Shown: in pieces, positions 25,896-31,166 of the stretch | Numbering within the stretch: the first letter of the stretch is position 1 | Layout of the letters: each line of letters opens with the position of its first letter | NCBI GenBank assembly: GCA_012960535.1 | Contig: DUBB01000007.1 | Location: 103,635 to 167,634 of the forward strand | Source: Gammaproteobacteria bacterium | GTDB taxonomy: Bacteria; Pseudomonadota; Gammaproteobacteria; Pseudomonadales; Azotimanducaceae | Direction: 5' to 3' | DNA length: 64,000 nt | The notes under the pieces: generated by a model | Databases searched by the model: none | What the model saw: only the letters and a program-made list of their open reading frames with translations | Told to the model about the DNA's origin: nothing | Program-made: the position numbers and the translations under genes

Positions 25896-26300
25896 TCAGC
25901 TTCCTATTGAATTGCTGATTTCGTGGCCGGCCAGGGTGATCGCCTTAACCGCATTATTAAGATCGTCCGCTGCAATAAAGAAATGATCCGTTGTGAATCC
26001 ACTGACTACCAGTACGCTAACCGATGCCTCAGCAAAAATACGAGTCACTTCTGCGGCCACGCCAATGGTACTGAATGCAAACTCACCAAGCAGTGAAAGG
26101 CAAACCCAACTGATCTCCGAGATTTCGCAATTCTGCCCTAGTTGAATATGCTCAGTCTCGGCGGCAGGCAACATGATCGAATAGTCACCTGCAACATTGA
26201 CCGTAAAAGCCTGGGACGAGATTGACAGATCTGCGGGCAATGCCGAATTGAGCTTTACAAACCGATAGGTGTCGGCAAGTACCCTGAACTGCAGTTCCAT
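25896..26300 (-). CDS. ACT domain-containing protein
   Basis: A 134-residue protein resembling a stand-alone tandem ACT unit: an N-terminal half with LQFRVLADTYRFVKLNS and a C-terminal half with SLLGEFAFSTIGVAAEVTRIFAEASVSVLVVSGFTTDHFFI, the pattern of ACT_7/CASTOR-like domains. Such proteins sense small ligands, often amino acids. No catalytic domain is attached. It lies upstream of glyA on the same strand but is separated from it by the riboswitch leader. Ligand unknown. Confidence 0.85.
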   Translation of the reverse strand: MELQFRVLADTYRFVKLNSALPADLSISSQAFTVNVAGDYSIMLPAAETEHIQLGQNCEISEISWVCLSLLGEFAFSTIGVAAEVTRIFAEASVSVLVVSGFTTDHFFIAADDLNNAVKAITLAGHEISNSIGS

Positions 26301-26379
26301 GAATAATTCCGCTCCCGAAAATTGACAGCATCTTCTAAAAGTCTAATGATAGCCTTAAGTAACCAAAACCGGTGGACAA

Positions 26380-27231
26380 ATGCAAGAAGGTCAATTTACA
26401 GGCTTCAAGGTCTCAACTGAACCTCCAGGTATTGCCTGGATCGAATTTAATGAACCCGAGCGACTCAACGGAATGAGTATCGCAAAAAAAAGAGACCTGA
26501 TCGAAGTGCTGAAGCAGGCACAGATGGATAATGCGGTTCGCGTTATCATTTTCATAGGCGAAGGACGCGCGTTTTGTGCAGGAGATGATTTAAAAGGTTA
26601 CTCTGCAGAATTACCCGATTCAAAGCTGCTGCCGCGTATCCCACCAGGTCATGATAACGCGCTTGGCACTTACAATTCATTGCGACATATCTCCCAGGAG
26701 CTTAACCTGACTATCAGAAAGCTCGACAAGATCACTATCGCCGCCATCAACGGCATCGCAATACAGACAGGGCTTTCACTGGCCCTGGCCTGTGATTTCA
26801 AGATTGCAGCTGACACTGCCCGACTCGGATCTGCCACCCTTAGATTTGGGCTGCTTCCGGATGAAGGTGGCCATTATCTTTTACTGGAACACCTGGGCCT
26901 GGCAAAGACCATGGCGTTCTTAATGAATAAGACGATCGCCAGCGCAAGTGAAGCACTGGAACTCGGACTGGTGAATGAAGTCGTTCCCCTGGCACAACTT
27001 AAAAAACGGGTTTCCGACCTCGCTTTGGAACTCAGCCAGGGACCGCAGATCGCCATGCGAATGTTAAAGCGCTCACTCTACCAGGCAACTTCAATGAGTT
27101 TTGAACAGGCCTGTGAGGATATCGCTACCAGAACCGCAGTTACCGATCACCATGCGGATGCCAGAGAGGGAGGCTCCTCGTTTCGGGAAAAACGAAGCCC
27201 TGTCTTTAATCGCTGGCTCGAAGATGAGTAA
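26380..27231 (+). CDS. Enoyl-CoA hydratase/isomerase family protein
   Basis: A 283-residue crotonase-fold protein. The oxyanion holes are in GRAFCAGDDLKGY (about 65-77) and NGIAIQTGLSLALACD (about 125-140); the region FGLLPDEGGHYLL carries the acid residue normally used for catalysis. Substrate cannot be fixed; hydratase or isomerase activity on an acyl-CoA is likely. The neighbours downstream (acyl-CoA dehydrogenase) and the ETF genes elsewhere fit beta-oxidation. The selenoprotein gene follows after 105 bp. Confidence 0.9.
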   Translation: MQEGQFTGFKVSTEPPGIAWIEFNEPERLNGMSIAKKRDLIEVLKQAQMDNAVRVIIFIGEGRAFCAGDDLKGYSAELPDSKLLPRIPPGHDNALGTYNSLRHISQELNLTIRKLDKITIAAINGIAIQTGLSLALACDFKIAADTARLGSATLRFGLLPDEGGHYLLLEHLGLAKTMAFLMNKTIASASEALELGLVNEVVPLAQLKKRVSDLALELSQGPQIAMRMLKRSLYQATSMSFEQACEDIATRTAVTDHHADAREGGSSFREKRSPVFNRWLEDE

Positions 27232-27336
27232 ATTTGTTAAGGTGCATCCCAGCTCCAAAGATCCTGCTGCCACTGTACAGGCTTCAGGGCTACTGCATTA
27301 CAATTGCTACCACTTTATTCATGCACAGGAATTGCT

Positions 27337-27588
27337 ATGAAAGTCAATATCGAATACTGCCTGCAGTGAAACTACCTCCCCCAGGCGGTCAGTCTGGCCA
27401 AACAAATTGAGCAGGCACGAGGCATACCCAGCGATCTACAGCCCGGTTCAGGGGGTGTTTTCGAAGTATTCGCTGGAGACAGGCTTATCTTTTCCAAGAA
27501 AGCTGAGAACAGGTTCCCCGAGACCGAAGAAATCCTGAACAAACTTGACCCACTCATAGCCAATAATAACCGAGGCGAGCCTCGGTAA
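27337..27588 (+). CDS. SelW/Rdx-family selenoprotein (in-frame UGA = Sec)
   Basis: An 83-residue frame (ATG 27337, TAA 27586-27588) interrupted only by TGA at 27367-27369. Reading TGA as selenocysteine gives MKVNIEYCLQUNYLPQA, that is the C-x-x-U redox motif at residues 8-11, followed by GSGGVFEVFAGDRLIFSK and RFPETEEIL, the hallmarks of the SelW/Rdx thioredoxin-like family. AGGA lies 6 nt before the ATG, and a SECIS-like hairpin directly follows the UGA. The next gene is 23 bp away. Rdx proteins are thought to act in thiol redox control. A cysteine-to-stop mutation is the alternative, but the conserved frame after the UGA argues against it. Confidence 0.9.
27381..27397 (+). promoter_or_regulatory. 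Bacterial SECIS-like hairpin of the SelW-type gene
   Basis: Starting 12 nt after the UGA codon, CCAGGC (27381-27386) pairs with GTCTGG (27392-27397), including one G-U pair, and leaves the apical loop GGTCA (27387-27391), 18-22 nt beyond the UGA. Bacterial SECIS elements have a short apical stem, guanines at the start of the loop and this spacing; the E. coli fdhF loop is GGUCU. It would recruit SelB with Sec-tRNA. Its presence at the right distance supports Sec decoding. Confidence 0.8.
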
Positions 27589-27611
27589 CAGACACTGATA
27601 GGAATATAATA

Positions 27612-28871
27612 ATGACAAGGGCGACAACATACCTGCTTCTGCTGCTAGCCTTCACCCAGTTCGGTGTTCAGGCAGACGAATTAAGCCAACGGGTAACCAG
27701 GGTACTGAAAACCACCCCCCTGATTGATGGCCATAATGATATCCCCTGGCAATACCGAGTCAGAGCCAAGAATCATTTGAACCAGCTTGATTTATCCGCA
27801 GACCTGTCAAAACTCGAAAAACCGACGCACACAGATATACCCAGGCTCAGGCAGGGTTTAGTTGGCGGACTGTTCTGGTCTGTTTATGTTCCTATTGGCG
27901 AGTATGGCGGAGATGCCCAGGATGTTCAGACCGTCATGGAACAAATCGACCTGGTCAAGCGCATGGTTGGCCGGTACAGCGCTGATTTTGAAATGGCATA
28001 CAACGCTTCCCAGGTCAGGGAAATACACAGTCGCGGCAAAATAGCCTCTCTCATGGGAATGGAAGGAGGCCACGCTATTCATAATTCACTGGCCACCCTC
28101 CGCATGCTCTATGACCTTGGGGCACGCTACATGACACTGACTCATTCTAAAGGACTGCTCTGGGCAGATTCGGCAACCGACGAGGCCAGACATGATGGCC
28201 TGACTGCTTTCGGTGAACAGGTTGTTCTGGAAATGAACCGAATCGGCATGCTTGTGGACCTGTCACATGTCTCTGCCGCATCCATGCGGGATGCCTTAAG
28301 GGTCTCACGTGCGCCTGTTATTTTTTCACACTCTTCCGCCTACGCTGTGACCCAGCATGCCCGGAACGTACCTGACGACGTGTTACAAATCATCGCCAGG
28401 AAAAAGGGTGTCGTTATGGTCAATTACCTGACTTCCTATGTATCAGAGCCCATGCGCCTCCACCGGATCAAATACGAGCAGCATCGTAACAGTATCTCCT
28501 CGCAATCCAGCCCGGATGAACTAGAGGCCGCCATGAAGATATGGCAGCAGCAGCATCCTGCACCGATAGTCACGCTGGCTGATGTGGCTGATCATATAGA
28601 TCATATCCGGCAGGTTGCCGGTATTGATTACATTGGCCTGGGTGCAGATTACGATGGTATGCCCCCCGGGCCGGTGGGGTTGGAAGACGTATCCACTTAT
28701 CCGGATTTACTCCGAGAATTACTGGTTCGCGGCTATAGCGATGAAGACATAGCCAAAATAGCCGGTAACAACATCCTGCGGGTGCTGTCTCAAGCAGAAA
28801 TTGTGGCAAAAAAACTACAGCACGAAAACGAGCCTGCTGACCTCCTGCTGGAGGAGACAAGATCATCATGA
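27612..28871 (+). CDS. Membrane dipeptidase (peptidase family M19)
   Basis: A 419-residue dizinc dipeptidase with an N-terminal signal peptide (about residues 1-22, TRATTYLLLLLAFTQFGVQA), so exported. Zinc ligands appear in DGHNDIPWQYR (HxD), GMEGGHAI (bridging Glu), LVDLSHVS and VIFSHSSA (His), with the Asp in GLGADYDGMPPGP. Family members cleave dipeptides, including D-residue ones, and some hydrolyse beta-lactams. The gene lies 23 bp after the selenoprotein gene and is probably co-transcribed. The next 127 bp (28872-28998) hold only a 24-codon ORF of no evident meaning. Confidence 0.93.
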   Translation: MTRATTYLLLLLAFTQFGVQADELSQRVTRVLKTTPLIDGHNDIPWQYRVRAKNHLNQLDLSADLSKLEKPTHTDIPRLRQGLVGGLFWSVYVPIGEYGGDAQDVQTVMEQIDLVKRMVGRYSADFEMAYNASQVREIHSRGKIASLMGMEGGHAIHNSLATLRMLYDLGARYMTLTHSKGLLWADSATDEARHDGLTAFGEQVVLEMNRIGMLVDLSHVSAASMRDALRVSRAPVIFSHSSAYAVTQHARNVPDDVLQIIARKKGVVMVNYLTSYVSEPMRLHRIKYEQHRNSISSQSSPDELEAAMKIWQQQHPAPIVTLADVADHIDHIRQVAGIDYIGLGADYDGMPPGPVGLEDVSTYPDLLRELLVRGYSDEDIAKIAGNNILRVLSQAEIVAKKLQHENEPADLLLEETRSS

Positions 28872-28998
28872 AGAAAATGACCAATCCGATCACCCGCCAC
28901 TTTTCTGGCTGGGTCTGCCAACACCGAAACCGTGCTGGCTGACGACCATCGATTATTTATTCAACAGCAGAAGACTTTAACTTGGAGCAAACCAACAA

Positions 28999-30218: not shown

Positions 30219-31166
30219 CTAACCAGTGGGAAGCGCTGTAAATGGCAGATTCCGGTAGTCAACATTGCCGCCTGTCAAAACCACGCCTATCTTCTGATCA
30301 GTAAAAAGATCTCTGTGGGCAATGATGGCGGCTAAAACTACGGCACTACTGGGCTCAACCAGTTGTTTCAGGTACCGCCAGATAAATTCCATGGATTCAA
30401 CGATCTGAGCCTCACTGACCAACAAAATATTTTCAGCGCCAGCGCTGATGATCTCGAAATTCAACTCGCCCAGCGTTGTCAGCAACCCATCACACAGCGT
30501 GTTGGGTTGATGACTGAGAACACGCGTACCTGTGTGAAATGATCGATGTGCATCATCCGCCTGGTCAGGTTCAGCGCCATAAACTTTAATGGTGGAATTA
30601 GCCGCCAGCACAGCGCCGGCTAGTAACCCGCCGCCGCCCACCGGGACCAAAATCGAATCCAGATCGGCTACTTGATCAATAAGCTCGAGTGCCGCAGTAC
30701 CCTGACCGGCAATAACCAGCGGGTCATCATAAGGAGGAATCTCACGAGCACGGGTCTGCAGGCGGATTTGCTCGAGCTTGGATGATCTCGCTTCCAGGCT
30801 ATTATCACAGATCACCAATTGACCACCATACTGTTCGATCGCTTCCATTTTGAGGGGATTAGCTGCTTGCGGCACCACAATAAACGCGGGCACCTGCCGC
30901 AATCTGGCGGCCCTGGCAAGTGCGGCGCCATGATTCCCGGATGAGTGAGTACACACCCCGTAGCGAATTTCTTCCTGAGAACAGGAAAACACAGCATTGA
31001 CTGCGCCTCTGCTTTTGAAGGCACCCGCTTTCTGTAGATGATCACACTTAAAGTAAACTCTACAACCTGCAAGCTGATCGATACTTGCACTGGTCATTAT
31101 GGGGGTGATGTGACAATGCGGGCGAATCCGCTGCGCTGCGGACTGGACCTCAGATCGACTAATCAT
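30219..31166 (-). CDS. PLP-dependent threonine/serine dehydratase-like protein
   Basis: A 315-residue fold-type II PLP enzyme without a regulatory ACT domain. The PLP lysine lies in GAFKSRGAVNAVF (Lys near 51), the substrate loop in SSGNHGAALARAARL, and the phosphate loop in PVGGGGLLAGAVLA. Size and motifs fit catabolic threonine dehydratase, serine racemase and hydroxyectoine-type EutB; these cannot be told apart here. The start overlaps the end of the LLM gene by one base, so the two form an operon. Confidence 0.88.
   Translation of the reverse strand: MISRSEVQSAAQRIRPHCHITPIMTSASIDQLAGCRVYFKCDHLQKAGAFKSRGAVNAVFSCSQEEIRYGVCTHSSGNHGAALARAARLRQVPAFIVVPQAANPLKMEAIEQYGGQLVICDNSLEARSSKLEQIRLQTRAREIPPYDDPLVIAGQGTAALELIDQVADLDSILVPVGGGGLLAGAVLAANSTIKVYGAEPDQADDAHRSFHTGTRVLSHQPNTLCDGLLTTLGELNFEIISAGAENILLVSEAQIVESMEFIWRYLKQLVEPSSAVVLAAIIAHRDLFTDQKIGVVLTGGNVDYRNLPFTALPTG

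Follow-up and report, generated by a model that had tools for sequence, protein, structure and literature searches.

Does a reading frame with a single internal UGA codon, found in a 64 000-nucleotide stretch of bacterial DNA (the window), encode a complete selenoprotein, or does translation end at the UGA? We are highly confident that the frame is a bacterial SelW-like (Rdx) selenoprotein gene, with UGA decoded as selenocysteine (Sec) via SelB and a downstream hairpin. The preliminary description of this DNA, made from the letters alone, had proposed a hidden SelW-like selenoprotein here; this proposal is supported by the reading frame, the family match, the Sec machinery and the conserved UGA. 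All lines of evidence given below (frame, family, Sec machinery, UGA conservation, covarying hairpin, purifying selection and predicted fold) were computed.

The interrupted reading frame

27337..27588, + strand: gene for a selW-like selenoprotein of 83 aa whose residue 11 is Sec (C8-L-Q-U11); supported by the frame, PF10262/TIGR02174 and homologues with TGA
27367..27369, + strand: in-frame UGA (Sec) codon, codon 11; 108 of the 109 distinct loci, counting the window's, have TGA
27327..27330, + strand: ribosome-binding site AGGA, with 6 nt between it and the ATG

The frame starts with ATG at 27337-27339 and ends with TAA at 27586-27588; the TGA at 27367-27369 is its sole interruption. The features listed in the preliminary description were all recovered: 83 codons with one TGA, placed where the CxxC/U motif has its second redox residue; the AGGA site at 27327-27330; and the residues GGVFEV, LIFSK and RFPE after the TGA. 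Translation with TGA read as U gives

MKVNIEYCLQUNYLPQAVSLAKQIEQARGIPSDLQPGSGGVFEVFAGDRLIFSKKAENRFPETEEILNKLDPLIANNNRGEPR

The standard-code ORF list had no ORF of at least 60 aa in the selW frame at 27337-27588; plain ORF calling would thus overlook the gene, as had been anticipated for automatic annotation. A perfect 7-bp inverted repeat (27569-27586) overlaps the selW stop and has a terminator-like score on the - strand.

Protein family and predicted fold

The read-through protein matched PF10262 (Rdx) with 70.8 bits (cut-off 22.6, E 1.1e-19, residues 2-70) and TIGR02174 (CXXU_selWTH) with 60 bits (cut-off 34.2); with both scores above curated cut-offs, the suggested SelW/Rdx membership holds. 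The score against NF041051, a Campylobacter-type equivalog, was 85.3 bits, just below the cut-off of 88. The AlphaFold2 model (pLDDT 87.2, pTM 0.72) has the order beta-alpha-beta-beta-beta-alpha; C8-L-Q-U11 sits between a predicted strand (residues 3-8) and a predicted helix (residues 14-28) of a thioredoxin-like fold.

The model is similar to the SelW-related crystal structures 2fa8, 2obk and 2p0g (TM ∼0.8, 28-34% identity over the aligned part). In the alignment with the Cys-type Rdx protein 2fa8 (Agrobacterium), the U of the window protein falls on the second Cys of CxxC; 2obk (P. fluorescens) and 2p0g (V. cholerae) presumably have CxxC instead of CxxU as well. Having CxxC, Cys-type Rdx proteins do not need recoding. 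Mouse SelW (2npb) was a weaker structural match than 2fa8 and 2obk (Foldseek E 1.2e-3, TM 0.62); it shares family and fold with the window protein (profile match E 3.5e-8), and we take its CxxU to be at the equivalent place. Mouse and other vertebrate SelW proteins are more distant in sequence, and the eukaryotic SECIS of vertebrate SelW is located in the 3′-UTR. This SECIS is of another type than the bacterial one, according to a legend in PMC1088965.

By analogy with these relatives, the window protein is expected to act as a small redox protein of the thiol/selenol type. C8-x-x-U11 would most likely cycle between the selenolate/thiol and selenenylsulfide states, with glutathione as a probable partner; PMC1088965 links SelW to glutathione.

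Sec-decoding machinery

Could the cell read UGA as Sec? The genome that the window comes from (4.24 Mb, 53 contigs, 93.6% complete) was searched for selA, selB, selC and selD, a check named in the preliminary description. As the tRNA-Sec, selB and selD searches matched all 14 control genomes as well (scoring above the cut-off in 5, 2 and 2 genomes, respectively), only rows above the cut-off were counted. By this measure selA, selB, selD and tRNA-Sec were all found, above curated cut-offs. selA (570 bits) and selB (426 bits) adjoin each other on contig C42. The tRNA-Sec is on the same contig at 133371-133459; it is a full-length match to the Rfam model (49.8 bits against a gathering score of 47) with anticodon UCA and anticodon loop CUUCAAA, and selD (255 bits) adjoins it. 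At this locus ARAGORN called a tRNA-Lys, a label overruled by the full-length Rfam match and the UCA anticodon. Nine other RF01852 rows were below the cut-off; the three examined with ARAGORN were tRNA-Ser, one of them beside a tRNA-Arg.

The tRNA-Sec and the long selD frame are found at 133371-134645 of C42, ∼35 kb from selB on one contig. The selD frame has a long N-terminal extension, which we assume to be an NADH-dehydrogenase-like part; the frame would then probably be an Ndh-SelD fusion. Such fusions are mentioned in a portion of PMC2398784.

As for the decoding itself, SelB with Sec-tRNA(Sec) would bind the hairpin just downstream of the UGA, and Sec would be inserted at position 11, yielding a thioredoxin-fold protein of 83 residues.

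Conservation of the UGA codon

A homologue was found in 38 genomes out of a set of 97, which comprised the window's genome and 96 relatives. In 30 it has TGA, and all 30 belong to the window's bacterial family; in 8 it has no internal stop, and all 8 lie outside the family. A family-wide search gave a match at E ≤ 0.001 in 113 of 206 genomes, a count that takes in a decayed copy (G051), a copy cut by a contig end (G190) and a 33-residue partial match (G183). The last two, together with three rows of stop-free paralogues (G017, G031 and G100), were left unfetched. The loci read numbered 121; with 11 loci repeating another one over 120 bases around the site, and G051 giving no hit, 109 distinct loci remained. 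TGA was present at the CxxU site in 108 of them, the window's included; the remaining one (L053), from another family of the same order, had TGC. Close homologues lacking both Cys and Sec at this site, named beforehand as evidence that would speak against a selenoprotein, were thus not seen among the distinct loci. The G051 copy, in another genus, has neither Cys nor Sec at the motif; it has several stops and does not count as a functional homologue.

One could imagine that this is an ordinary Cys-type Rdx gene, with TGA a misreading of TGC or TGT, or that its UGA stands for some other amino acid. Stop-free forms do exist (all eight matches outside the family are of this kind, and one of them, L053, reads TGC); still, since 108 distinct loci share TGA at this site, the Sec machinery is present and a conserved hairpin has a SECIS-like placement (see below), we regard this explanation as extremely improbable.

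Genomes G017, G031 and G100 have the UGA form together with a distant stop-free Rdx paralogue. The decayed selW of G051 keeps a SECIS-like hairpin (locus L141, 1626-1670, - strand; 38.2 bits with hairpin model R1), and the G051 genome still has selA.

The selW frame downstream of the UGA is under purifying selection within the genus: dN/dS after the UGA was 0.071, 0.154 and 0.158 in comparisons with three congeners over 61-66 codons. Four hand-chosen pairs outside the genus gave 0.065, 0.127, 0.57 and, in the fourth pair, saturated dS. The stop that ends the frame after the UGA has the same position as in congeners G009 and G011.

selA (E ≤ 1e-40) was found in 28 of the 30 genomes with UGA-selW versus 27 of the 67 without it (Fisher p 4e-7, kinship ignored); within the family alone the co-occurrence was weak (28/30 versus 22/31, p 0.043, kinship ignored). 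No selA was found in two UGA-selW genomes, G030 and G054 (91% and 93% complete), and selA was missing in six of the eight genomes with a stop-free match. Within the genus, selW was not found in 11 of 15 genomes, several of them incomplete; six of these congeners (G001, G004, G007, G008, G010 and G012) had selA. Formate dehydrogenase was considered as a second selenoprotein of the genus and rejected: rows over the cut-off appeared in 8 of the 15 genomes, none with internal TGA. With selA present and selW not found in the six congeners, and no TGA in formate dehydrogenase, other selenoproteins may exist there. A scan of the genus with the SelW hairpin model gave no convincing second site (best other E 0.07; 150 of the 665-1839 first-look candidates per genome were scored). 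Phage records contained no selW homologue.

A conserved hairpin downstream of the UGA

27385..27401, + strand: conserved SECIS hairpin site; 27385-27391 pair with 27395-27401 in the consensus, around the tip GUC (27392-27394); based on covariation in 99 sequences
27381..27397, + strand: competing hairpin of the preliminary description; 27381-27386 paired with 27392-27397, loop GGTCA at 27387-27391; MFE -8.8 kcal/mol

Is there a recoding signal in the gene family? From the 108 UGA loci, 99 sequences went into an alignment, after removal of rows that contained N or duplicated another row in their first 45 bases. With columns numbered from the U of UGA, a helix of 7 bp joins columns 19-25 to 29-35 in this alignment, and 97.7% of its cells were paired. 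Compensatory changes occurred at three pairs, with 19 cells altered on both sides: pair 21-33 was seen as GU, GC, CG, AU, UA and UG; pair 24-30 as CG, UA and GC; pair 23-31 as UG, CG, UA and AU. Pairs 21-33 and 24-30 each join a third codon position with a third codon position. Among 500 shuffles none reached the covariation score and one reached the count of pairs changed on both sides; this control ignores relatedness, and on some measures both helices, the conserved one and that of the preliminary description, beat every shuffle. Sliding the partners along the alignment told the two apart: the covariation score of the conserved helix (0.206) stood against values of at most 0.068, and that of the other helix (0.132) against values of up to 0.139.

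Ser19 is AGT in 101 of 101 cases, versus 25 of 301 among Ser codons later in the gene. The tip has the form A-GU(U/C)-U, lies 21-22 nt from the UGA and is carried by a consensus stem of 7 bp; tip and spacing agree with the bacterial SECIS model in a section of PMC13188914. The conserved hairpin was present in the minimum-energy fold of 91 of the 99 sequences. Its median energy was -8.6 kcal/mol, with 86 of 99 sequences at or below -7.5 kcal/mol, the MFE limit for bacterial SECIS elements given in that section. We consider the alignment of 99 sequences a clear example of an RNA hairpin under selection within coding sequence.

The hairpin with the GGUCA loop, 18-22 nt after the UGA, fared differently. 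It exists, and it is the predicted MFE fold of the window's gene; it is not, however, the conserved element, which overlaps it and is shifted 4 bases downstream. As a candidate for the conserved SECIS of the family it was rejected: 74.4% of its cells were paired over the 99 sequences (versus 97.7%), its four outer pairs were 69.0% paired in the first 29 sequences (versus 94.6% for the conserved helix), and it appeared in the minimum-energy fold of 2 of the 99. Nor is the window's region unusually stable: when 27367-27410 was folded, as the preliminary description had proposed, z was -0.34, with 70 of 200 shuffles folding at least equally well; for 27370-27405 z was -1.21 (22 of 200 shuffles at least equal).

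The hairpins of the window's gene

Among the 99 sequences, the window's has the least stable copy of the conserved hairpin: its -5.0 kcal/mol misses the -7.5 limit. The upper five pairs of this copy (27387-27391 with 27395-27399) can form and the lowest two cannot; the C-G pair 27386-27400 is lost, with A at 27400, in this one sequence of the 99. The competing hairpin (-8.8 kcal/mol) is within the limit and outcompetes the conserved one in silico. Congener G009 keeps the 27386-27400 pair and shares the competing fold; congener G013 folds like the rest of the family, with the competing hairpin absent. Model R1, whose training included the window's sequence, scored 27367-27411 with 42.5 bits; the next hit in the window had 7.7.

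Could this be a gene in decay, a former selenoprotein whose SECIS is disappearing in this lineage and whose UGA now terminates translation? The lost pair and the weakest hairpin of the family point that way, as do the 11 genus genomes without selW (several incomplete) and the clearly decayed copy in another genus, G051. In a decaying gene one would not expect what is found after the UGA, namely an intact frame with its stop placed as in G009 and G011 and dN/dS of 0.07-0.16 against the three congeners. The gene has also kept its UGA, its CxxU motif and the invariant hairpin tip, and selA, selB, selD and tRNA-Sec are in the genome; we therefore find decay very unlikely. Because selection on the protein persists, we interpret the state of the hairpin as drift, or as an early stage of turnover, in an element that still works.

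One could speculate further that the SECIS is being rebuilt here: the ancestral hairpin lost its lower pairs and an overlapping, stabler hairpin with a GGUC-type tip arose, the two folds being mutually exclusive. The tip presumably resembles that of the E. coli fdhF SECIS. The fold energies are consistent with such a rebuilding, and the absence of the new hairpin in G013 counts against it; on balance we think it rather unlikely. If true, it would be a snapshot of SECIS turnover within coding sequence. The weak hairpin of the window is also a natural variant for testing how stable a SECIS must be for SelB.

Genomic neighbourhood

26380..27231, + strand: enoyl-CoA hydratase/isomerase, upstream neighbour; PF00378; precedes selW in 8 of 97 loci
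27612..28871, + strand: membrane dipeptidase, M19 family, downstream neighbour; PF01244; in 3 of 97 loci

The two neighbours had been named correctly, and the order enoyl-CoA hydratase - selW - dipeptidase is common to the four selW-bearing genomes of the genus. The acyl-CoA context drawn from them did not prove general. With 11 of the 108 loci (congener G009 among them) dropped for having <1 kb on a side, the hydratase preceded selW in the same orientation at 8 of the 97 testable loci (tblastn E ≤ 1e-40, 1 kb on both sides), and an acyl-CoA operon as a general rule was rejected. A gene for a PLP-dependent enzyme, a relative of the one at 30219-31166 of the window, is a neighbour of selW, in opposite orientation, in 8 of 97 loci as well; two loci have both. 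The neighbourhood appears to be common to some members of the family; it is no demonstration of an acyl-CoA role, and support for the acyl-CoA context is weak. Rfam gave no match at E ≤ 1 within 26300-28900.

Relation to known SelW-like selenoproteins

Literature searches, made without the organism name, found nothing on this gene. Its closest parallels in the excerpts of PMC1088965 and PMC2398784 are the SelW-like selenoproteins of the Sargasso Sea and Global Ocean Sampling (GOS) data: these are also bacterial, with CxxU and an Rdx/SelW domain, and in them, as here, a hairpin whose small apical loop contains G comes after the in-frame UGA. Judged by these excerpts there is no essential difference; what the present case has in addition is covariation over 99 sequences, with the window copy as the weakest form. 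In the available portion of the GOS selenoprotein table the SelW-like family has the highest count, 427 sequences (PMC2398784), and it is listed in a section of a 2026 review (PMC13188914). According to PMC1794560, organisms that use Sec contain few Cys homologues of SelW-like proteins, or none; this pattern fits the family seen here.

The window gene is an additional member of the known SelW-like family, which is abundant in marine data (PMC2398784). The gene is real yet easily overlooked, in a family already known as common in ocean bacteria. Given that plain ORF calling does not see such genes and that SelW-like sequences are the most numerous in the GOS table portion, they may be under-annotated in the window's bacterial family.

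A UGA-selW 48% identical to that of the window was also observed in a genome labelled as belonging to another phylum, a Krumholzibacteriia MAG (locus L144, 1205-1417); it reflects either horizontal transfer or a binning error.
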